From Polytrichum commune (taxonomy: Eukaryota > Streptophyta > Polytrichopsida > Polytrichales > Polytrichaceae), in assembly GCA_950295325.1 (NCBI GenBank), contig OX485803.1, positions 45,151,554 to 45,215,553 on the forward strand: a stretch of 64,000 nucleotides of DNA, given 5' to 3'. Below the pieces are notes generated by a model, which was given only the letters and a program-made list of their open reading frames with translations, made no database searches and had not been told where the DNA came from. Both the position numbers and the translations under genes were made by a program. This document shows positions 12,860-29,902 of the stretch, piece after piece; the stretch's first letter is position 1, and each line of letters starts with the position of its first letter.

Positions 12860-13535
12860 GGATCTCCGTATTTTAGTGCTACGAGCGTTTGTAGGACGCC
12901 TCCCGCGGGCAGCACTCATGCTCGGGCAGCCCGTTCCTGTCCTCCCGTCCCGACCCGTCCTCCCGTCCTGACCCGTCCTCCCGTCCTGACCCGTCCTCCC
13001 GTCCTGACCCGTCCTCCCGTCCTGACCCGTCCTCCCGTCCTGACCCGTCTTACCTGCCCGAATTGGCCTTCCTGCCCGTGTCCTCCGTCCTGCCCGACGC
13101 GGCTTTCCGCCTGTCCAGCTGTCCACGCGTCTGTCCAGCTGTCCACCCGTCTGTCCATCCGTCATATCCGTCTCCACCACTACCCCACACCGAACCCGAG
13201 CTCCGTCATTCTTCCTTGCTCACGCCACTAGACAGCTCCGGAGCGAGTGAGGAAGTTGGGGAAAGGTTGTTGCATTGCTAGTTTAGGGTTTGGAAGAGTT
13301 GTAACTTCGATTGATGTTGTCTTAGTCGCCCGCCATGGAGGTGGACATTGTGGATCTGGGAGGGAAATGTGTCTTTTTCGAAGAAGGGTTTGATTTTGTA
13401 ATAGAGGAGGCCACGGAAGATGTACAGGACGGACATGGTTTAGTTTCAGATCTAGAAATTCTTCTGTCATTCTTCTGTCATTTTTCCTTGCTCACGCCAC
13501 TGGACAGCTTCAGAGCGAGTGAGGAAGCTGGGGAA
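12860..13535 (+). repeat. Left long terminal inverted repeat of outer element, with an 18-bp internal tandem array
   Basis: This matches the reverse complement of 30395-30982. It contains about six to seven copies of an 18-bp unit, CGTCCTCCCGTCCTGACC, at about 12938-13050, where the right repeat has only about two. It is GC rich compared with its surroundings. The inner part carries the short frame at 13335 beginning MEVDIVDLGGKCV and a partial second copy of the sub-segment starting CTTGCTCACGCCACT. Confidence 0.85.
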
Positions 13536-14436: not shown

Positions 14437-14465
14437 CACTACAACAGATTGGGTATTTTGTGACT
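14437..14465 (+). repeat. CACTA left terminal inverted repeat
   Basis: 29 bp starting CACTACAACAGATTGGGTAT, identical in reverse complement to the right end. It is preceded by the GTT target duplication. Confidence 0.95.
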
Positions 14466-15094
14466 AGGGAAATATGACTGGGGATGACTGGTGACTACAT
14501 GCAGTCACATTTTCCCAGGCCTCGACCTTTGGTGGGTACAAAATTCAAAAACATGACTCGCAGTTATATTTTACTGTCGTATTCAGCAAATGTACTGTAT
14601 ACGACGTATGGGAACGACGACTGCCTTTATAGGGAACGGCGGGGAACGTGTATGGTGGACGCCCAGTCATATGTGCCAGTCACATTTTTCTGTGAGTCAT
14701 ATTCTTCAGTCACATTCTGATTAGGACCTTTTTTTACTTTTTTTGGGCAACCCTTGATAATTCAGGCTGCTCTAGACGGGCCTCTTGTGTTTTTGCCCCA
14801 TGACTCATTATCTAGTATTATGGTTTGGAGTATTTATTTAGTAATGACAGATAATGGTCAAAATTAAGTACTTTGTGTGTTATAGTATGAACAACAATGA
14901 AAATTGGGAATGGCCCATGTTTATTTATTGATTGAATAATTAATTGATTGATGTTTTAGGGAGTATAGGGGGGAAATTGGGGAGGAAATTTGATTTTTAC
15001 TATTGCCAAGAGACTAATTGAACATGTATATAATTGAACTTAAATATATACCCACCTAAGTTTCACCAAAACAACTTCTTGCTCGGACGGGAAG
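14466..15094. promoter_or_regulatory. CACTA left subterminal region
   Basis: Contains dispersed AGTCA/TGACT words, for example at 14470-14520 and 14660-14720 (CAGTCATATGTGCCAGTCAC). In CACTA elements such subterminal repeats bind the TNPA-like protein. The rest is AT rich with no gene; the tnp2 stop lies at 15095. Confidence 0.65.
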
Positions 15095-18000
15095 TCAATC
15101 ACCGTCCGAGTCGCAGTGCTCGGAGTCATCTACCAATGCGTCATCCGGTCCCTCTAAACATTCTAATGCCTTGGTAACCACTCCTGGCCCTACTTCCACT
15201 GCATCGCCCAATATGGGTGTTTTCGGTACGATATCGTCATGAAACGCCGTCACTTGTAATCCGGGAAAATCAGAAGTCCTACCTAGTGCTATGCATTGTA
15301 CTTCATCCGTTCTTTGTTGTTTGGAGAATACCCGAACCCCTCTCGGTTCCTTGCGCAAAACAACTTCCCATCCACACTTCGCTACGTCAGGTGCAAAAAA
15401 AACTTGTTCGATGTGGAGAGGAAATGCAAATGATTGTGCTGAGAACGGAATCAATCTGTCAAAGTTTATAATGGTGAATCCATAGTCGTCGCGCTTCATC
15501 GTCGCCCCATCTCCCTTAATGTTTGCAACGACCCAATTGCAATAGAGGACCACCACCTCGAAGAATCCATAGTCCACAGATAGGATTTCCTCCACCCAAC
15601 CCACATACTTCAACTCCGCTGCCTTTGGATTTGTGTCCTTTAGGCCCGAGCGACATAATTGTCGAAATGTTGCGGCCACCCCTGAGTCCATCGTTGTCAA
15701 TTGCGCCTGTGCGCTTCGGACACGGATGTGGTTTCCAAACGCATACATGGATCAATACGACTTCGCTGCATCCGATGGAGGTAACATCAAGGCCCTAACG
15801 TCTTCTTGTACCTCCTCAGTGCCTTCTTCTATGGCGCGCATCACTGCTTTTGGAAACCAAATGTGGAAATCTTCGTCGCGCAGCTCCGCTGGGTACATTA
15901 CCCGCGCCTTCCGCTTCTTGCGCCTATATTCGTGCCGCTCACATTCCCGCCGTGACATGTCATCCTCGTGTTTCCTGCATTTTGGATACAGCCCATGACA
16001 TCATTACCCGGGACTTGCTGAAATCACTAAGGGCAGTCATATTTGCGTACAACAGTAGTCGTAGTGTGTCGCGATAACTACAACGAAATGCATATTTTAC
16101 TACTACATTTTGTGATTGTACTCAGTCATAAATCCCAAAATATGACTGAGTGCAGTCATGACTATAAGGTCACAAAAGATGTGTTTTGTTGTAGTTCGTA
16201 TGGTCTGGATTGTTGTTCTAACAAAGGTGGTGCATTTAAGGTTCTTCCAGTAAACAGTGAACTCACCTCCTCCACTCCTCCAGTGGTGCCGCATTGTTCA
16301 CCACGAACTCATGTATCCATTGTCGAAGGTCGGATGGGAGATGACGCGCCCGCCCGCCACCTTCGAGGATCTCATCATACATTGATGGGTCTTCTTTGTC
16401 ATCCCACACTCTTCGAGTGGTGACTGTATATTCTTGCATATACTCCGTACAAAATCCTAATGCCTCTACTATGGCGTAGCCTTCAGCCATGCAACCCTCT
16501 GGTCGAGTACGGTTTCGGACATACCCTTTTAGAGTCTTCAGATACCTCTCGATAGGGTACATCCAACGTGTATGTACAGGTCCACAAATTTCCACTTCCT
16601 CCACGAGATGCAGGACCAAATGGGTCATGATGTCAAAAAATGATGGCAGGAATTTTTTTTCCAACATGCATAGTGCTATGGCCGCTTCACACCTCATCTC
16701 CTGTATTGTTGCAGGATCAATGGACTTAACACACATCCTCCTGAATACACGGCTCAACATTATTATGGATGTCCGCACTTCCTTTTCCATTGTGCAGCGC
16801 ACACATAGTGCCAACACTTGCTGCATGAGGACATGGTAGTCATGAGATTTCAGGCCTTTTATGCTCCCATCCACGTTTACGCGCTTCTTCAACTGTCCCA
16901 CATAGTGAGTGGGGGTTCGCAGTGCACGCACTTGCTCCACAAAGACTTCACGCTCTTCTTTCGTCATAACGTACGAGGATCGAGGTAGAATCACACTACC
17001 GGGTTTTGTTCCTGCTACGGGCCAAAGATGTGGGCGTATATCCGCCTCCTTCATGTCCAGACGAACTCCAAGTGTATCCTTCTCTCCAAATATGGTTTTC
17101 ATCACATTCTCAGCGATGTTTTTCTCACAGTGCATAACATCCAATGTGTGCCGAATTAGAAGATCCTGCACAATGACTCGACCCAGTGAGAAATTTTCCG
17201 GAGCGAATCACAATATCACTACGTGCAATCATGTGACTGTACATGACTACGTCTACTCACATAATACTCATAAACAATATTACTATATGCAATCATATTA
17301 CTACGTCCACTCCCTTAATTCTCATAATAATATACACGTACTTTCCAGTATGGAAGGTCATATAGACATGTCCTCCTCTTCACTCCATGTTCGTGTACGG
17401 GGTCTGTCGTCTGCCCAGTTTGGTTTCTGTAGTGTTTTTTCATCCACTCTTCTCGCTCGTTCGCATATCGCAATTGCTCTTGACCACTCATCCTTCTTGG
17501 CAGTGGTCTCATCTCCGGGTGCCCATCAAAATTGGACCTTTGTCGTCTCCATTGGTGGGTCATTGGCAGTTGTCGTCTATGCCCAAGGTAAACATTTTTT
17601 TTCAACGCTTTGGAACGCCGTGTTGCCACGTTGGGGCCACATACGGGGCAAGCCCTATGTCCTTTTGTTACTTGCCCCGAAATCAAACCGTACGCCGGGA
17701 AGTCATTCACCGTCCACAAAAGCATGCCATGTAGCTTAAATGTTTTCTCTTTGGAGTTTCCTTGCGATCCGTCCAAGCATTCGATCCCTTTCCAAAGCTC
17801 TTGGAGCTCCTCAATCAACGGTGCCATGTACACATCCACGTTCCTGTCCCTTACACTCTCTTTTCCGGGTATGATTAGCGCAAGCATCATGAAGAAGTTT
17901 TTGGTCACTAACCAAGGGGGGAGATTGTAGTTTAGCATGACCACGGGCCAAGTAGAGTGGCTGAGACTTTGGTTCCTAAATGGATTTACGCCATCCAGTG

Positions 18001-18895
18001 CAAGGCCAAGCCTAACGTTCCGTTCATCTTCCGCAAACCACGGCCACCTATTATTTACGTGGTCCCAAGCCTTCGAGTCCACCACAGACCTCATCACCTT
18101 GTCCTTACTTTTCCCACCTACATGCCACTTCATTAGCTCCGCGATCCGTGTGCAGCTGTACATCCTTCGCAAACGAGGAATCAAAGGAAAATGTCTCAAA
18201 ACTTTGACTGGAATTGTACTGGAGTTCTCGACAAAGCGCGATTTGTGGCATGTTGGGCACTCCATTGCATTCTCCAATTCTTTCCGAAACAAACAACATC
18301 CATCTCTACACGCATGTATTGAGTTGTAGGACAACCCCAACTTCATCAACAAGCCTTTCGCCTCGTTAAATGATTTCGGTAGTGTGTTGTCCTTGGATAA
18401 AATTGTCTCCTTCAACAACTTCAACAACTCATCCACAAAGTTGTTTGGTACAGCGAAGGTGGTGCAACATAATAGTATCAAGAGTGTCGATGTGAGACGG
18501 TTCGAGGGGCTTCCCTCATACAGTGGAGTTCCAGCTTCGTATAAGAGCTTCTGGTGGTCTACCCCACTGGGGTCCTCACTGTTCATGGTACTCCCTCTTG
18601 TTTCCATGGGGTCATTCGTTTCTTCCCTTTCCCCCTCGCTACCTTCACTGTCCTTCGTTGTGAAACCATCCTCCCCTTCATCGTCTTCAACCAATGCATC
18701 CCCGAGTCCCTCATGTATGGTGGCTTCGGTTTTGTGTCCGTCAAATTTGAGGCCATCGTACTTGCCAAAGCACTCTGCCACCATACGTAGCACCTCAACT
18801 TCTCCATCTTGTCCATCGTTTGTGTTAGGGTATGTTTGGCTTCTTTGCCCAGTCCGGGGTGCATGGGAGAACAAGTCAATCGGGCTGTACTCGTC
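15095..18895 (-). CDS. CACTA tnp2 transposase (one in-frame TGA)
   Basis: DDE/D transposase of En/Spm elements, which cuts and joins the transposon ends in the nucleus. Three exons join in phase: 18895-17342, 17165-16267 and 15974-15095 (1111 codons with stop). Exon 1 carries the tnp2 core with LGLALDGVNPF (first acidic residue), KTFKLHGMLLWTVNDFPAYG (second) and an HRACPVC pair. The splice to exon 2 gives LPYWK/DLLIRHTLDVMHCEKN, which includes the third acidic position. Exon 2 continues with the DUF4218-type segment (GLKSHDYHVLMQQ, RWMYPIERYLKTLKGYVRN). Exon 3 holds the DUF4216-type segment (GNHIRVRSA, KRDDYGFTIINF). A TGA at 15754-15752, between KSY and SMYAFGNH, interrupts exon 3. The start is unsettled: the reading frame extends upstream to ATGs at 18967 or 19009, or exon 1 may be spliced to the upstream exon ending at 20128 (also phase 0). 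Confidence 0.9.
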
Positions 18896-19427
18896 CTGCA
18901 TAGAGTGATAAATTTGTGCGCACGTTACATATTTTCGCTTTGGCAGAAACATACGACAAGGATTCATAACATTAACAATCACAGAACACGGATTGTATAT
19001 AACATGCACATATTATATACAAATGTATAAAAACGACAAGGAGCAATCACAAATAGTTTTGTGTCACATGGATGAGTCATAAATTTGTGACTTTTGTGTT
19101 ACATGATTCTGTCATAAAATGCGCGTTGTATCTAACGAGGGGTAATCATAAAACGCCGAATATAACATGAATGTGTAACATGCGTGGGGGGTGGGGGGAT
19201 GTTCATCGATTATGAAGACAATAATGTGTCAGGTGAAAGAAATTTCATGCACCATACAAATACAAGCATTGGATGTAAAAAAATGGTCATGTTCCACGTA
19301 TGCATGTATACCGTGGTCCGGACATGTATACAAAATTTTGTCAAAACAAAATATGACTTCGTGTAGTCATGTTAGTGAACACATGACTCACTTTAGTCAT
19401 CCCGAATATGGACTAATGGGTGTTAGC

Positions 19428-20253
19428 CTACAATGCGGTGTGCGGGTTCAAAGAGTAGTGTGCATACAACTCTTCTCCAACCAAAATGTCCTTTGTGGCT
19501 ATGGTGATTACATACCCCCATTCCTGTTTGTTCCAGGGTTTTGGCAACATGCGAAATCCCACACCACATTTCCTATTTCTTTGCGTCCTATGGAACTATT
19601 TATGAAGCCAGCGACATTCCCCTTCATTACATCTCCATCGATGTACAAGTCCGGCTCAACTTGCATCGCATATGACTTCACTCGAGGTTGTGCCTTCTTC
19701 AAAGATCTGTATTCTCCCAAGGTGTATTGTGGTCCTACAAATGGCAGCAGTTCCTCTCCCTCTTTGGCAGGTTGAAGTGCAAAGAGACCCCAACCCATGA
19801 ATGGGAAGTTGGACACCCTTACTTCCCATTCTCTATTCCAATATGAAAACTTTATAAGTTTTGGGATGGGCCCGTCACACCACTGTCCGTCATACACGTT
19901 TGACCCCCATGTCTGCAAGGCTCGTACTCTTGCAGACGTTGTGTTTGGCATTGACTGTGAAGGCATTTCGTGTCCTCCTAGAAACTTTCTCAGGGATGTC
20001 TTGCAAGCAGCTTTTACAATGGGTCTCCATCGGGCCTACAAAATTCATGTACACAAAGATGAAAACTCGCTCAATGCAGGACCACCCGCTTACGCTCATT
20101 CAAAAGTCGTTTCATGGAATGACTCACCAAGATAGAGGTTGTAAACACAGGGTCCCTTTTTTTGCTGCGAAGATGCTTTCGAATTGTGGCTCGATCGAGG
20201 ACTTTCCCTCCTGCACACTCCATGCATGGGCATGGGTACTTGGATAGCCGCAT
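19428..20253 (-). CDS. Transposon-borne transposase-associated/SET-domain protein (one frameshift)
   Basis: Two exons join in phase: about 20253-20128 and 20035-19428. The first gives KYPCPCMECAGG followed by RATIRKHLRSKKRDP, the Cys-rich pattern at the N-terminus of tnp2 proteins (transposase-associated domain). The second encodes a SET domain: GWGLFAL near its start, then EGEELLPFVG, DLYIDGDVMKGNVAGFINSS and, after a 1-base frame change in a G5 run (19515-19519), ATKDILVGEELYAHYS. SET domains methylate protein lysines with S-adenosylmethionine. Here the usual RFINHS is GFINSS, while the C-terminal catalytic-type Tyr (HYS) is kept, so activity is doubtful. The start is uncertain; 20253 is the ATG nearest the Cys motif, and the open frame continues upstream to about 20340. 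The unit lies just upstream of tnp2 and may be an alternative terminal exon of the same transcript. Confidence 0.7.
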
Positions 20254-20389
20254 TGCATCTGCTTGGACCTCTTCTTCTTGCCATAACTGTAAATGCTTCA
20301 AGCTTTCGACCTGCCATCCTGTGGTGTGCACGGCATACGCGCTGGGTCAATTTGTGATATGGGAATACCTTACAAGGAGGAAGTGCTCG

Positions 20390-20620
20390 TATGCACGCAG
20401 TCACGTATCTATGTGGATTAATACGGTTGGGGAATCAAATAACCCAAGGCAGTCATATAACACAGGGGAGTCATATAAGACATGACAGTCATATAACACA
20501 GGGGAGTCATATAAGACATGGCAGTTATATAACACGCGGGAGTCATATAACACATGCCAATCATATAAGACATGACTGTCATCAGCTCATGACTAGAAGG
20601 CGTGAAAATACTCTCACCTA
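20390..20620. repeat. 36-bp AGTCATATAA tandem array inside CACTA
   Basis: About four copies of a 36-bp pattern, two half-units of the kind AGTCATATAAGACATGAC and AGTCATATAACACAGGGG, lie upstream of the minus-strand unit. The position suits a regulatory array at its promoter side. Confidence 0.75.
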
Positions 20621-20639
20621 AGCCGTGAAGCAACTTGAA

Positions 20640-22430
20640 GGAATATTATGAAACATCATGAACCCAATCCACTTTGTATGAATCTTCTTTTACAACAGTC
20701 ATGAACGTGTTTGATAAATCATGGCATATGATTGTATGATTTAAATAAAAGTATCCTAGTTGAGTTGGTTGAGAAGACTCGACAAGTCATAAACTAAGTA
20801 GCTTATTCTCTTTGAGTTGGATAAGGGTTGTTTTCAATATGAGATCAAGGGCTGCGAGGAAAGAAAATTAGGATGTCTCATTGTCCAAAAACCACGACCA
20901 ATAGATATTCACGTCACTTTTTAAAGCCTTGATCATGGGACATGTTGTAAAGCATACTTAGGAAAATGGCTATGGGCACAATTTGGATTTGCTAATCATT
21001 TTGCACTAATTGTGTATTTCACATCCTATGAGAAGAGGGTTTAAAGAGAGTTGTGTTTATTCAAGACCCACTTACTTTAGTGACCACTAATGTGACCTTA
21101 TGGACCATTGTGCACAATATGTATCTTCTTGGTCATTGAGTGTACACAATTATATATGGGGGCTCACACATAGTGAGCTAAAGTTTCGTATTTTCAAAGC
21201 CGAGCAAACACCAAGCATTAGTTTCATTTGATTTAATTATAGTTATGAGAAATGCATAACATTTGTTGATTTCTTAACTAAATACGCAGGTTCTCCCAAT
21301 TGTGTTCATTGTTGAATGTAGAGTAGTTCTTTGAAATTTGAAGACGTATTCCAATCTTTTCTAAACATATGTCTTTATGATATTTTCTTTTTGATCCTCA
21401 CCGAACCAATTATCAATCATATCTTTAAGTCCGATTAAAGAAGTGAGCCACTTAAGCCCATCTACCTTACATACTTAGAAAAGGTGGTACCAAGGGACCA
21501 ATTCAACATCAAACATTTCTTTTCGCTTCTAAATGAAAACTCGTCCTAGAAGTGCAAAGCAGACTCAATGAACACCGACCTGATAGATGGGTTTCATTTG
21601 TTAACAAAACACTTAAATATTAAGAAGGTACCAAATACAAGCTCAAAGGACACATAGGTATTATATTAAGCAATAATTGACCACTATTATGTGCTGTGTT
21701 GGAGGCATGTGTAGTTCATGCCTCGCTTCGGATCTGTGGCGTCTGTGTCAAGTCATCCAATGTGGATGAAGGGGATTTAGTTTAAAAAAGGTCCCCGTCA
21801 AGGTTGAGGGTCGATTTATTCCAACTAGACTCCATAAGATTAATTCAGGGTCTTTGATGTTATTTTTGGAGTCAAATACAAGTTATACTACAATTCACTA
21901 CGTTTCCTCCTTCATAATGGATGAGTTTACATAGACACCACAAATCCCTCGTCAAGTTCATGCCTTATAAAGTAAATTAGGGAGAAGAGCTAGAATCCCC
22001 TTAGAAAAAATGAATATTTGACCTACTGGATAATTCTTCATTTGATAGAGATAAATTTATATTGGTATAAAAGATCACATGGATAAAACCCATACTTTTT
22101 TTGTATATGGATAAAACCCATATAAGTGTGATGAAACCCATACTTTTTTTGTAAAAGTAATTTCAATGGGGCCCTAAGTAAATCCATGATCGGACCCTTT
22201 TTTACCCTGTTATTGAAAACGAGAACACTTTTCACACTTTTTTCACTTTTCACTTTTCACTTTTTTCTGGGTGATTATAGATTTATGGTGTTCCAATAAC
22301 AATCACTTATTTGACAGTCATTTTTTCATAGCGCAATATTTATTACTATAAATAAATCTAAAAATTCAACTTTTTAGGTGCAAATTAAAATTCATGATCT
22401 ATTTTGAAGCCACATTCCATTTTTTAAATT
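20640..22430. other. Central non-coding block of the CACTA element, built of old genomic repeats
   Basis: No gene. It lacks the AGTCAT motif typical of the rest of the element. About 20990-21500 resembles 43560-44050, and 21700-21980 resembles 58990-59280, both outside the transposon. It is probably an inserted or captured stretch of older repeat DNA between the divergent units; no clean ends were found. Confidence 0.5.
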
Positions 22431-22435
22431 TGTGA

Positions 22436-23626
22436 CTGCCCCTCTCTCTCAGTCACATATCTCTCTCTGCCCCCCCTCCCTCCCTTCCTCTCTCACTCGG
22501 ACCCCGACCTCTCTCTGCCCCCCCTCCTTCCCTCCCCGCGCTCTCTCCCTTCCTCCCTCCCTCCGACCTCTCTCGCTCTCTTTGTGCCCCCGCTCCCTTC
22601 CTCCCTCCCTCGGACCTCTCTCTCTCTCTCTCTCTGCCCCCCCTACCTCCCTCCCCGCGCTCTCTCCCTTCCTCCCTCCCTCGGACCTCTCTATCTATCT
22701 CTCTCTCTCTCTGCCCCCCCCCTCCATCCCCGCGCTCTCTCCCTTCCTCCCTCCCTCGGACATCTGTTTTCTCTTTTCGACCTAAAGCTCCCGCCTTCTG
22801 AACTCATCTAATTCGGCAGTGCTGCGATCGGTGTACTGAACAGGGTCTCGGTGTTCGCCGAAGGGTCTCTGTGGGGAGCGGCGGGTCTCGGTGCTCGAAG
22901 GCGAACAGGGTGTCGGTGTTCTTCCGAGGGTGAAGGGATACAGGGTCGGCGAAGGGATACAGGGTCCTCGGTGCAGGGTTCCGAGGTGCAGGGTCCCCGG
23001 GAGCTGAGTGGGAGAGTGCTGGGGTTCGGTGCTGGGTTGGATTACTTTTCAAAGTGCAGGGTGCTGGGTTGTAATCTAAGTTCGGTGCTGGGTTCGTTGC
23101 TTTTACCAGATTCTTCTACTTCGGTGCATAAAGAGAGCTGGGTGCACTTTGATCCTTCGGCAGCACCACTTAACTTTTTGGGCTGAGGGTAACCCTAATT
23201 CGGACACTAAATCTCTCTCTTGGGCGTCTCTCTCTCTGTTCGAGATTGTCTCACTTTCCAAGGTTGTGCACTCTCTCATCTCCAAGGTTAAGATTTTAGG
23301 TTAAATATTAACACTTCAAAAATCTCAGAACTTGTACTTTGAAAGACGACAATGTAAATTGTGAAATGATCAATCATAATTCGGACACTAAATGTGGTTT
23401 CCTATTGGATTCCTTTAGACACCTCATACTAATACCCCACACACACAAAGTAATACGAAGAGGAGAAAGGTGAGCTCACTTGAATTCGCAACTTCCGTGT
23501 CACTCAGTTGTGGAGGTGCTGGTTGTTCTCCACCTCCTCCGCTCACGGTGTAGCTGGAACGGCAGCAATGGGGACAGCCTAATTGTCCTCAATGAACACT
23601 AATGTGCATTTGGGTATTGTAGAATC
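22436..23626 (+). promoter_or_regulatory. CT-rich low-complexity block and putative leader of the plus-strand CACTA gene
   Basis: 22436-22770 is almost pure C/T with about four copies of a roughly 75-110 bp pattern (CCCCGCGCTCTCTCCCTTCC then CTCCCTCGGACCTCTCT). 22800-23170 is G/T-rich with repeated GGGTCTCGGTG and GGTGCTGGG words. Exon 1 of the accessory gene follows at 23627 after an acceptor-like TTGTAG. The arrangement suggests promoter and leader sequence. Confidence 0.45.
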
Positions 23627-26600
23627 ATGGAGGAGGAAATTCCGGAGTATGAGAGGATGCGGAAGAAAAACATCGAGGCCAACAACCAGAAGCTGCGGGA
23701 ACTGGGTCTGTCACCGATTGGGACTTCTCATTTCAAGAGACCTGAGGACCCCGGGTATGTATGACCAAACCCTAATACAACGGACCCGCTACAGCTAGGG
23801 TTGCTTATGAATTTTGAAACTTTTAAGAGTCCTTGTAGTCATAAATTGCATACAACTTGCTGAAGACATGACTGTTTGCAGTCATAGTTCATAGTATTAT
23901 GACTCCCTGTAGTCATAGTTCAAAATATTATGACTCACTGTAGTCATACTTTAAGGTCATTATGACACAGTCCAGTCACATTTTTGTGATTATGACTCCT
24001 CCCAGTCCTAAAAATATTGTAACTTCTTCCCACAACTTTGTTGTTGTGCATCATATGTGGCTTCTATTGGTTTTCTACGATCGTGCATTTATGATCATGT
24101 GTATGAACAATGTTTTTTTTTGACATCACATAATGAATGAATAATTTCATACTACCCAACAGTCCAGAGTTACCAAATTTGAAAGGGAATTGAAACCATA
24201 ATGCATAGGCTAAATATTTCGGGTGTCATATTGAGGAACAATGTAGTGGGGGCTAACTAAGCTGCTCACATGCATGATTGGTTGGTGCCCGTGATGATAA
24301 TGAAAGTTTGAATTATTGGAACTCAATTAATACTAGCTAGAGCACGTGTATGTGTTTGTTACATATTCCTTTCGTAAGATGAATTCACAAAGGTTCAAGC
24401 TCAATTTTATGTGTTGACAATGTGTATGTGTTGTCAACTCTGCAATAGGTTCTAACAATTACAATGGAATCCTGAACTGAGTTCCAGTAATAGACATTCA
24501 ATTTCAATTTTCATTTTCAACCATCCTCATTACATGTTGTGAACAATTTCATGATTATGACTCCTCCCAGTCATACTAATTTTCACCCACATGACTCATT
24601 TAAGTCATGTTTCAGCATTGGCATGTGTTGGAGTCACAATTTTTGTAAGATGTAATGTCCGTCTAATAACCCCCGCTCGTACTGAACAGTGTGGTTCCCG
24701 CGACTTCCACCAAAAATGCCGAAATGAACAATGTACTAGTCAATTTGATAACAAAAATAGCTAATCTGCCTGATGGCATGCAAGTGGAAGTATTTCGCAC
24801 AATTGCTAGTTTCCCGGCAATTTCATTGCCGGTTTTGGAGAGAGTGGGGAATGAGGTTGCGCGTGTTTTTGAGAGCAGCCATGGCGTGCTTGTGGGAGAG
24901 CCGGGCCCATCTGTAGAGCAGGGTGGTGGCTGGGGTGTGACCACTCGAGCGAAGGGAAAAAAACAACTTCCTGAAACGGACCTCGATGATGACGAGGACG
25001 AAGAGGACGAAGAGGAGACTTCTGAGGACGAGCGGCCCAAACCAAGGAGGCGGAAGGTAAAAACATACATCTCCGTAGTTTCTTGCATTTGCTTCCGCAT
25101 TCAGTCGTTCGCGTTACATGATTATAGGTAGTCATATGACTATAAATAGTCATATGACTTTATCCAGTCATATTATGTAACTTAGTACAGTCATGTAGGG
25201 TGACTCCATGCAGTCATATAATGTATTGTACGTCTGGGTGTGTAGGGAAATGCAAATGAACCCAGGTCATGGCCGTTGCAATCCAGTGGAAAGAAGGGCA
25301 AGGCGGTCGATGAGGAGGATATCCTGCTGTCCCAAGACATGCAAGATACTCTCCGGGCTTGTGAGATGGACGCCGACGACGCATCGGCGGACAGCGAGGA
25401 GGAAGAGGATGGCGCAGGGCATCGTAACGAGCTCCTTGACGAGTTGGAGCTCCGGGAAGTAAGCATTTTGCGGCGTATGGCTCAAAAAGGAGCCGATCCA
25501 ACACAACTTCGCGAGAAGGTGCGTTGCCTTGGCCGGACGGCAGAGGTTCAAGGCGACGACGGAAACGCGCGGCATCGACAGTCGAAGTTGAAGAACCTTA
25601 GGCGGTCCTTGAAGAAGAGTGACGAGCTGCACACTTCTAGTGGTGGTCAGCGTTTGTGGGTCGACGTTGACGAGGCCGGGTGCCCGACAGGGATACACAG
25701 GCCTGACTGGCTGACGCGACTACGCGGGTACTCTCGCGACCTCGACTGGAGCGTCGACAACTTCAGGGCACACCCACGGCCCTTGTTGTTGGCGATTAAA
25801 GACAAGATGGCCGCACAGTTCGAGTACCGTGGTGGACTCGGAGACGTGCCTGAAGCTGTTTTTTTTCTTCAGATTTTGCGCCAGTAGATGCGGACTCGCA
25901 GGTCGAACATGAAGAAATTCATAGAGAGTTGTGGCCCGCTCCCACCGTATGTGAAGAAGGCGTACGTCGACAACTTCAAGCGCTTAATTGCCCGGACGGA
26001 CAAAATCGCGGAAGCTACGCGCATGAAAGCCGCACGGCAGACCGTGCAGACCTTGTCGTATTCTGGAAGGTCCGAGGGGGAGGTGCGCTCTAGACTGGTA
26101 AGTGATTTTGTGTGCAAGTCATTCAAACATAAATAGGTGACAACCTGCAGTCATACAATTCGGTCATATAATGAATGATATCACTTTACATAGTCATACC
26201 GTGAGTCATATGGCCATAGATAGTCACATGTGACCTGAATATAACTTCACCTATTCATATTCAGACACATATGACTTCACCTAGTCATATTGTGAGTCAT
26301 ATGACTTCACCTAGTCATATGTTGAGTAATATGACTTCAGGTAGTCATATTATGAGTAATATGACTTTAGCTAGTCATATTCTGAGTCATATGACTTTAC
26401 CTAGTCATATTCTGAGTCATATGACTTTACCTACTCATATTTAGTATGATTACGTATTTTTCATGGATCCACAGTTGCTCCTTTCACAGGCCGCAAATTT
26501 AGAGCGGCCCCCGATGCAGCTGGAGGTGGAGACCGAGCTAGCGACACCCGGGAAATCAGGACGGGGCCGGTCATCGTCGTCCAGAGGGCCACTCCCAAAT

Positions 26601-29084
26601 GCAAGAGCGGGAGATAGAGCCCTCTTTGTTACGCGGAACGAGCTGCACGACTTCCAGGATAACATGAAGGGGGAGATGGAAGATATGAAGGCTATGGTGA
26701 AGCAGCTGCTGCTGGAGGTGCAGAAGCGAACGACGGCCATGGACATGGAACCGCCAGCCACGGCGGAAGCGGGAGTCGACGTGATCCAAGTAACCGCCGA
26801 AAATGTTGCGTCTGTATACCCTCTAGTACTCGCTTCGAGTACATGTATGGAACACCTTTGCTTCAGCAATGTTGTATGTCATGCATGAAGATCTTTCACT
26901 AATACACGCCTCATGTGGATCATTAGAACATGCAGGCAACTGGGAAGTCGGCGGAATCCGGGCATACTGGGTCGACTGCGGCATCGGAGCCCCTGCATAA
27001 CACCCTAGCAGATATGGGTTGCCAACCCGTCATTCAAAAGAAGAAACCCATAGCCAAGAAGAGGAAGGGCGAAGCGGAGAAGCTATTGGCGGAACGCGAT
27101 GCACGGCCTACCCGGCGTGCAATGGCTCGACAGAAAGAGGTTGGCATTCATGTCATATGCATATTATACTTGTCAGATAGTTATACTTACGTGCAAGCTT
27201 TATGTCTTTAATTTGGCATCAACATTGGACAGTCATATGACTATGTCACATAATATGACTGTAGGCAGTCATATAATATGACTCTAGGCAGTCATGTTAT
27301 ACGACTATAGGCGGTCATACTATATGACTCATTTCAGTCATAAAACATGAGAAGTAGCAGTCATATAACATGACATGAGGTTATCACAAGCAGTCATGTA
27401 TGACAGGGCCGAGTCATAATCTAACGCTAGAGTGTTACTGGGTAGTGGCCTTCCAGGTTATGACGGTTGGAGCGAGTCAGGATCAACCCGTGGACTTGCA
27501 GGAGGACGAAGACCATGAGGAGCCTGCGACGAAGAGGCCGGCAAAACGGGCACATAAAGGAGGCAGTCCACAGAAGAAGAAGAAGAAGGCTGACAATGCT
27601 CCGAAGTTCCAGCCGTTAGCTGCGAAGGTCCCCTCGGTAAGAGTGTCGGACTCCGGGCGTAGGAAAATTATAGTGTTGAATGTTGTAGGGCTTCTTTGCG
27701 ATATCAGACCTCTGCACGATAGGAGAGAGTGGGGCCCGGATCTAGTGATCCACCACGCAAAGGACCTGAATGTAAAAATCAAAAAAAGAACCGACTGCGA
27801 TAAGTTTTTGTCGATGTTGTTCTCTAATTTTGATGTCGGGATATGGTCCCCCGTAGAGCAGAACGTACTAGAGGTTGTAGGTGCATTTCTTGCATCGGGA
27901 ACGACAGCTCAATGGAGCTTTCTGTGGGGGAGGACTTACCCCCTGCAGAACCCAATAAGAGACCTCTGCAATCTATTTGATATGATTCCGGACCCCACGC
28001 ACGGCTCAACACGATGTCTCCAAATCGATTGGGATACAACGGCGACGGCGCGTTCCTCCCCCCCCTCAAATGTCCTAAACTTTCCGGTTTGGGATCCCCT
28101 AAACCCCAACGATGACTTCCTCCGCAGAATCTGCGGGCCATTCGAAGCATTGGCCCGCAAACAATCCGATATTGAATATTGCTTGGCGTATCTGACCAAG
28201 GAGGTCCATCTAGCGTCGGTACCTACGAACCTGGTAGGTTCATCAACACAGGTAAACTGCTCTTGGATATTTTTTGTTTCTATTTGGTTCTCACTCCAAT
28301 CGCAAACAAGTAAGATGCTGATAACATATGTCCGCATAGGTATGTCACTCCACGAAGTAATATGAGGACCCTAGGTGAATATGTAACTTATTGTGATCAT
28401 ACAATATGACTCTGTCCAGTCATATGACTATGGTCAGTTATAGGAAATATGACTATGTTCATTCATATGACTATGGCTAGTCATGGGTTGTATGATTATG
28501 TCCAGTCATATGACTATGGTCAGTTATAGGTCGTAATTATATTACTCATTATTGTCATATCTGATGACTACGGTGCGTTATATGAGTATGTCCTGTCATA
28601 TTATGCAATCATAGCCTAGTGTGAGGTCATATTTTGAGTATTGAAGCTCCAGTAACTCCACGCGGATTGTTTTGATTGTTGATAATTATGTTTTCTGCTG
28701 CAGACACAAGCAGAAGAGGACACTCTCGTATTGTCAGAGACGGCTAATGCGTTGGTGGAGGACGCACCCTTGCCGTTGGCTACGGGGTCCAATGTCAAAT
28801 TGTTTGACTTGGACGAGGAGAACAAGGCCAAGGTGAACGTAGTGGCACAAGGCATCATCGTGAGCCTTGCAGGAGGCTCACTCCACGGGCGCCTCATTGA
28901 GGAGGGCAACGTATCAGTTTGCGTGTCCTCAATCGAGCCGAGAGCAAAGTCCGTGTTGCTGTACGAGGGCAACAACGACGACGATCCTCCGATGCTGCGT
29001 CTGGGCGATGCACTGAAGTCCATCACCAAGTGGCCTGTGGAAGCATTGAAGACTATCCCGCCGGAACCTCAACAAACCACTTAG
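23627..29084 (+). CDS. CACTA accessory transposase (Ptta/En/Spm type) fused to an FCP1-like domain; one in-frame TAG
   Basis: Seven exons join in phase with GT-AG introns: 23627-23754, 24690-25056, 25246-26097, 26475-26789, 26936-27139, 27457-28251 and 28704-29084 (1014 codons with stop). Residues 1-43 hold the plant PEYERMRKKNIEANNQKLRE motif. Residues about 140-200 are very acidic. Residues about 310-449 match the plant Ptta/En/Spm transposase pattern (LWVDVDEAGCPTG, FEYRGGL, MRTRRSNMKKFI, TLSYSGRSEGEV), with a TAG at residue 379 (25885-25887). Residues 500-535 could form a coiled coil (DFQDNMKGEMEDMKAMVKQL), followed by Lys/Arg-rich stretches. Residues about 690-870 resemble FCP1/SCP HAD phosphatases (RRKIIVLNVVGLLCDI, CDKFLSMLFSNFDVGIWSP) without the DxD pair. 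The end has DALKSITKWPVEALK, like a DUF8039-type domain. It probably binds element ends or aids tnp2. Confidence 0.8.
26160..26450. repeat. 30-bp CTAGTCATAT/GAGTCATATGACT array in an intron
   Basis: About six copies of a 30-bp unit (ATGACTTCACCTAGTCATAT then a short spacer) lie entirely inside the intron between accessory-gene exons 3 and 4. Each unit contains inverted AGTCAT and ATGACT words. Confidence 0.8.
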
Positions 29085-29873
29085 ATTTCGGTAGTTTACG
29101 CATTTAGGGATCATGTAGGAAAGATGAACACATTTGGATATGCTTGGAGACATGGACTACATAATATCGTTCAAGTTATTGAAATTTATCTGCTCAATTT
29201 GTGTGCTCAATTTCTTATTTGGCTCAGTCATGTAGCACATGACTTGAATGTGTCGTCATTGCTTGGAATGTGCCACGAAATGTAACTGACATTCAGAATT
29301 GCAAGTAATACGATCTAACTCAATACAGTTACAACAACGCACAAAGAACTACACAATGTGACTCTCCATCTACGCGAATATCACTCCATCATGTCATATT
29401 GTGCATCACATGTTACTAAGAATATGACTACAGAACGTCATATAATAATGTCATCCCCGCAGGAAATGTGACCAATGCCCCAAAAAACATGACTACAAGC
29501 AGTCAAAAAACTAGCAGTCACATTCCACGTGGCCTGCCACGTCGGCAAAATTATGACACATGCAAGTCATATTACACGTTAGCAGAAAACATAACTACAT
29601 GGAGTCACATGCCACGTCGGTTTGGTATTTTTTCTGCCCGGGCAGGTCAAAAAAAGGCACAGACTCCAAGGCTAGTCAAGGTATGTCCCACGTGCAGTGG
29701 GGATCGTAGAATATGTTCTTTTATACGCCTCCACAACCGTATATATTCATATGACTCATGTCCGAAGCGACTCGTCGGTAATGACTAGACCCAGTCACCG
29801 CGCGCGTCATCCGCATCTGGAGCCTCGTCAGTCATATTTTGGGATTTTATGACTTAAGGCAGTCATAAATTAC
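29085..29873. promoter_or_regulatory. CACTA right subterminal region
   Basis: Follows the stop of the accessory gene. From about 29220 it is packed with ATGACT/AGTCAT words in both orientations up to the terminal repeat, as expected for the transposase-binding subterminal array. No gene. Confidence 0.7.
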
Positions 29874-29902
29874 AGTCACAAAATACCCAATCTGTTGTAG
29901 TG
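29874..29902 (-). repeat. CACTA right terminal inverted repeat
   Basis: 29 bp ending CTGTTGTAGTG, the perfect inverse of the left end. It is followed by the GTT target duplication. Confidence 0.95.

Follow-up and report, generated by a model that had tools for sequence, protein, structure and literature searches.

The plant En/Spm transposon generates TNPA and TNPD from one promoter via alternative splicing and is not known to possess a SET exon. SET genes have been linked to DNA transposons of other kinds: HarbingerS, a Harbinger DNA transposon carrying a SET gene, is reported from oomycetes, as cited in PMC12730594, alongside MuDR families with SET genes from the oomycete Phytophthora. The same text mentions fungal DNA transposons, including EnSpm, that encode a TET/JBP dioxygenase thought to counter silencing (PMC12730594).

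The element considered herein lies within a stretch of DNA of 64,000 nt, the whole of which is referred to as the window. It shares CACTA ends, a TNP2-type transposase and possible alternative products with En/Spm, the difference being that here the second TNP2-side product would be a SET protein. Going by the descriptions available, a SET gene borne by a DNA transposon is common to HarbingerS, the MuDR families and the present element, but the former are Harbinger and MuDR transposons, as opposed to CACTA/TNP2, and the host group of HarbingerS probably differs. The fungal elements, as described, similarly combine an EnSpm-type transposon with a putative anti-silencing enzyme, although that enzyme is of a DNA-demethylation type rather than a SET protein. 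SET genes on DNA transposons are therefore already known (Harbinger, MuDR), whilst the CACTA carrier appears new, with no CACTA-borne SET gene reported amongst the titles and abstract openings listed from a literature collection that excludes subscription papers and Repbase entries. The interpretation favoured herein, which has roughly an even chance of being correct, is that a resident gene of this CACTA (En/Spm) lineage encodes a SET lysine methyltransferase that modulates the silencing or activity of its own element, with alternative splicing of exon 1.

The window element and its SET exon

The element spans window positions 14437-29902 (15,466 bp, ~15.5 kb) and is bounded by a perfect 29-bp TIR, the left copy of which begins with CACTA (CACTACAACAGATTGGGTATTTTGTGACT, 14437-14465, plus strand) and forms a perfect 29-nt inverted match to the right copy at 29874-29902 (minus strand). 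The flanking triplets are TTC on the left and GTT on the right and, as these differ, the window copy has no 3-bp target-site duplication (TSD). Two relatives do possess one, namely sibling A2 (C2:43574017-43589514; 15,498 bp, with a perfect match over the first 16 bp), which is flanked by TCC/TCC, and one copy of element E (TTG/TTG). Repeats of the form ATGACT..AGTCAT are numerous and spread across the window element. On the minus strand of its left half are exon 1, the SET exon, TNP2, DUF4218 and a weaker DUF4216, with the ORFs of the right half lying on the plus strand. The TNP2 transposase exon (17315-18895, minus strand) contains a Transposase_21 match (PF02992) at 17468-18103 with an E-value of 1.2e-73, and continues on the same strand into DUF4218 (16263-17207; E-value 1e-36) and DUF4216 (15095-15751; 26.9 bits, below the cut-off of 30.6). 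The perfect 29-bp TIR and this transposase match, together with SET profile matches in sibling copies, bear out the proposal of the preliminary description that a SET-domain unit resides within a CACTA element. No Harbinger transposase was matched amongst the 10 window ORF stretches scanned, at E-values of up to 1.

The SET gene opens with a Cys-rich exon 1 (20128-20346, minus strand) bearing a CPC..C pattern, which is Transpos_assoc-like, although its PF13963 score of 21.6 bits falls short of the 27.7 threshold; the same shortfall is seen in 5 of 5 subfamily exons. From the splice-site sequence, a phase 0 intron is predicted at 20036-20127 (minus strand), with GTGAGT following the terminal TTG of exon 1 and TGTAG at its 3′ end. 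The SET exon begins at 20035, directly after TTTTGTAG, and its junction with exon 1 is in phase 0. Exon 1 of subfamily A also scores 23.1 bits against the Pfam U-box model, above the cut-off of 21.4, with the other four subfamily exons falling below it; the similarity of this CPC..C exon to a U-box is probably coincidental.

The open part of the SET exon (19508-20035, minus strand) harbours motifs I to III (GWGLFA, IDG and GNVAGFINSS) in a single frame, whilst the remainder (19428-19507, minus strand), with motif IV (GEELYAHY), is in another frame owing to a frameshift. Specifically, the window frame leaves the sibling sequence past NVVW and meets a stop at 19508, whereas intact siblings read NVVWEF..GEELYAHY without interruption. 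In exon 1 of the window copy the first ATG has likewise fallen out of frame, whereas A siblings read RMAGGEVESLKHLQLW. Due to these two frameshifts, one before the last SET motif and one after the first ATG, the window copy is probably dead. The full motif order attributed to this copy consequently holds, within one frame, for motifs I to III only, and the suggested check against the Pfam SET model gives a divided result: taken by itself, the fragment from the window reaches 21.5 bits where 22.4 are required, but 18 of 18 aligned siblings are matched (E-value 0.01 or better, the best being 3.7e-11), with the first member, an intact sibling, reaching 39 bits. The SET feature is therefore real and far above chance, but the window copy is damaged.

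Conservation of the SET gene and its association with TNP2

A search of the genome (407.8 Mb in 64 contigs, and probably that of a plant, judging by its TNP2-type elements) with the window SET protein returned at least 150 matches (150 of 220 candidates scored), many of them intact, which rules out a chance or single-copy match. Pfam SET (PF00856) itself yields at least 119 matches, 90 of which coincide with those of the window protein (150 of 155 candidates scored, such that the counts are lower bounds). By identity to the window, the copies fall into groups A (mostly 86-94 %), B (~50 %) and C (more distant). Many carry stops; nevertheless, amongst 60 fetched SET places plus the window, motifs I to IV occur in one frame in 50 of 61 rows (17 in A, 19 in B and 14 in C), with the window copy being one of the other 11.

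Within the CACTA-ended elements of the window, A2 and E, exon 1 precedes the SET exon and TNP2 follows it. When the first 99 SET places by rank are considered, 75 have TNP2 downstream on the same strand and none shows any other arrangement, with the remaining 24 having no TNP2 among the TNP2 matches listed. This association varies by rank slice, with a downstream TNP2 in 36 of the first 39 places, 20 of the next 24 and 19 of the last 36, where the slices are only an approximate guide to the subfamilies (A, B and C), since the later ones include a few fragments that resemble A or B. The 51 of 150 SET matches that are left out of the 99 comprise 47 that enter the reverse count only and 4 second fragments that are in neither. 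In that reverse count, a SET exon was found upstream in 72 of the best 150 PF02992 places and not in the other 78, at least one of which does carry SET, in pieces.

With regard to selection, dN/dS was obtained by Nei-Gojobori counting from copies chosen as intact, which lowers the values somewhat. For SET, the B1-B2 comparison gives 0.19 (bootstrap 95 % 0.11-0.30; dS 0.65) and B1-B4 gives 0.21 (bootstrap 0.12-0.33), against 0.13 and 0.16, respectively, for the corresponding TNP2 domains of these three elements; for B2-B4, SET stands at 0.40 versus 0.14 for TNP2. Within-group means for SET are 0.45 (A), 0.22 (B1), 0.35 (B2) and 0.45 (C1). The B2-B3 value is 0.65, whilst that within B3 is 0.99 and dS within B4 is 0, both of the latter resting on few changes; dS is saturated for pairs between A, B and C. 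The SET gene is therefore constrained over the longer branches, albeit less tightly than the transposase. Both expectations attached to the original observation, that of multiple intact copies and that of a Ka/Ks below 1, are thus upheld (as seen in the 50 in-frame rows and the B1-B2 value), and neither a noise-level SET score nor a unique copy devoid of CACTA relatives was encountered.

A conserved SET gene that belongs to the mobile unit and is linked to its transposase must be weighed against a passenger gene fragment, acquired by chance in the manner of Pack-CACTA elements and left to drift. CACTA elements are indeed described as capturing pieces of host genes (PMC8616336), and both the stops present in many copies and the broken state of the window copy fit such an origin. 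Set against this, the position and orientation of the exon are constant in several subfamilies, dN/dS is 0.19-0.21 over a dS of ~0.65, and the transposon SETs form one group apart from those of the host, which together render a drifting passenger very improbable. The last of these points derives from a tree in which 10 transposon SETs are separated from 5 host SETs with support of 100/100. The branch that leads to them is long, a situation about which the program issues a warning, and the 5 host sequences are drawn from 9, the other 4 being of more distant types. This same split speaks against a host SET gene having been captured recently. An origin in viruses or prokaryotes is likewise disfavoured, no relatives having been found in viral_contigs or genome_contigs, neither of which is meant for plants. 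In sum, the SET exon is present in several subfamilies and is under purifying selection on the branches that can be measured.

Active site, predicted splicing and possible function

A profile of 18 members, when compared with the PDB, finds SET1 (H3K4-type; 9.6e-6) and ASH1L (1.6e-5), with KMT2A weaker at 3.8e-4. Residue conservation was assessed over 61 rows (59 fetched copies, the window and E, with one fetched place, L060, dropped as its chosen ORF was exon 1). G81 and G83 of the SAM-binding GxG, D133 of the ID pair and N146, the motif III Asn, are each present in 61 of 61 rows. Of the 52 rows extending as far as the final Tyr of motif IV, 51 retain it and one has Asp; in the window copy a frameshift removes this residue. 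In contrast, His is found at the NH pair in 0 of 61 rows, its site being occupied by Ser (56), Asn (4) or Ile (1), whereas the pair is kept in 9 of 9 SET stretches outside the family, which were taken as host genes. An altered active site (GFINSS) had been noted for the window copy; the absence of His is confirmed, but this is not an oddity of one copy, and decay is ruled out as its source, GFINSS being a conserved signature across the family. Furthermore, the transposon SET proteins end 3-8 residues past motif IV and so have no post-SET Cys cluster, a feature that is not universal amongst SET enzymes.

Due to the absent NH His and the missing post-SET region, catalysis is in doubt and a non-catalytic role is conceivable. 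The fold could then act as a binding module for SAM, a histone tail or the transposase, thereby regulating TNP2, e.g. as a competitor that shares exon 1. In support of this, the NH His is lacking from every row, there is no post-SET region and, for the competitor version in particular, exon 1 is in phase with both the SET and TNP2 exons. Conversely, the GxG (61/61), the Asn (61/61) and the final Tyr (51/52), which are associated with SAM binding and catalysis, show the same strict conservation as structural residues, and PR-domain enzymes such as PRDM9 are active despite lacking the canonical NH pair. A catalytically dead SET domain is therefore a possible explanation, but a somewhat doubtful one.

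The favoured interpretation, that of an active methyltransferase, also depends on how exon 1 is used. Of 60 rows (59 fetched copies and the window, again with L060 dropped), 47 have both a donor GT directly following the same codon of exon 1 and a TGTAG acceptor ahead of the SET exon (donor in 51, acceptor in 53), and one or both, as searched, are missing from the other 13. Together with the phase 0 junction at 20128/20035, this agrees with the earlier claim that the Cys-rich exon joins the SET exon in phase. A predicted acceptor for TNP2, TATGCAG before GAC, is situated at 18896/18895 (minus strand), also in phase 0 with exon 1, and all six elements examined (window, A2, B, C, D1 and D2) show a phase 0 CAG directly ahead of TNP2. 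As exon 1 fits both downstream exons in phase 0, one shared N-terminus is suggested, and the SET exon carries a separate stop codon. The simplest reading of these sequences is that exon 1 is joined alternatively to SET or to TNP2.

Under the favoured interpretation, splicing of exon 1 to the SET exon would yield a short SET protein, and skipping of the latter in favour of TNP2 would yield the transposase. The common Cys-rich N-terminus could recruit the SET protein, either to the element itself or to the transposase complex, and once there it might, as a putative lysine methyltransferase, methylate either histones at the element or the transposase. Such methylation would modulate silencing or activity of the element, either shielding or restraining it. 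An involvement of the SET protein in silencing, as first suggested, would be plausible. Alternatively, the enzyme might act on the transposase or another non-histone protein and not on chromatin at all. The frequent pairing with TNP2 and the possibly shared N-terminus would suit such a target, whilst the nearest solved relatives by profile, although weakly matched, are histone methyltransferases, and the proposal is regarded as fairly unlikely. Epigenetic enzymes borne by transposons are a sign of an arms race over silencing, and the conserved absence of the NH His raises the question of how this SET domain works, or whether it has another role.

SET-bearing and SET-less relatives

Element E (C3:52939767-52954218) has CACTA ends, with 3 mismatches in the outer 16 bp, alongside the TSD given above. 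It possesses a CPC..C exon ahead of its SET exon, the protein of which scores 23.0 bits against Pfam SET (cut-off 22.4), and also carries a DUF4218 part as well as pieces of the TNP2 domain (41-49 % identity). Over 11,150 bp, E shares 99.87 % identity with a second copy located on a different chromosome, although the right end of that copy was not found, and a third shows 96-97 % identity. The near-identity of the first two suggests recent movement of a SET-bearing element. Its SET place (L069, C3:52945326) had been considered as a host ancestor, which is ruled out, as it belongs to this multicopy CACTA element. For B, the element ends were not found, the two copies compared giving rearranged blocks, and for C they were likewise not found, the sole TIR pair recovered being weak (3 mismatches, differing flanks).

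Lineage D (L067 and L068) consists of CACTA-type TNP2 units that have a related exon 1 and no SET exon, and a loose tblastn search found no SET between exon 1 and TNP2 in either D1 or D2. In the TNP2 tree, the position of D beside SET-bearing elements of group C2 (support 95/89) suggests that D has lost its SET exon. Six changes of SET gain or loss were counted in this tree, which is too many, owing to wrong or unsure SET-less labels: in row n_C3_36842 SET is present as pieces split by an insertion, whilst for n_C7_22670 the label is unsure, with 844 bases upstream covered. A single gain of SET with loss in D is possible. More ambitiously, one could envisage a CACTA lineage in which one shared targeting exon serves either the transposase or a self-directed SET writer with INSS in place of INHS, such that the element would place histone methylation on its own copies. 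This chromatin writer, encoded by a transposon and unusual in its active site, would have been kept over several subfamilies and probably lost in D; the idea is put forward tentatively, as something more apt to be wrong than right. The SET gene is abundant, conserved and tied to TNP2, yet absent from a related lineage of the same genome, and thus SET-bearing and SET-less D elements provide a natural comparison with respect to methylation marks, expression and the age of the copies.

A second, divergent gene unit (24670-28365, plus strand) is located in the right half of the window element, and its last ORF is a weak match to NIF/FCP1-like phosphatases (PF03031; 21.5 bits, cut-off 21.8). Phosphatases of this type carry a DxD motif, and as NVVGLL replaces it at the corresponding position, the domain (27379-28365, plus strand) is probably without the catalytic Asp. 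At least 101 NIF/FCP1-like matches are present in the genome, many of them ~8-10 kb from an A-type SET place, with more distant relatives in open frames at C2:43151054 and C2:4740125. A NIF-like ORF (1.1e-14) is also located just beyond the right end of E (L095:7944-8792, plus strand; C3 ~52954944-52955792), and may be a host gene or a piece of another element. Within the window, GC-rich 18-bp tandem repeats occur at 12900-13097, to the left of the CACTA element, and a C/T-rich repeated stretch, perhaps a nested insertion, is situated mid-element at 22443-22821.
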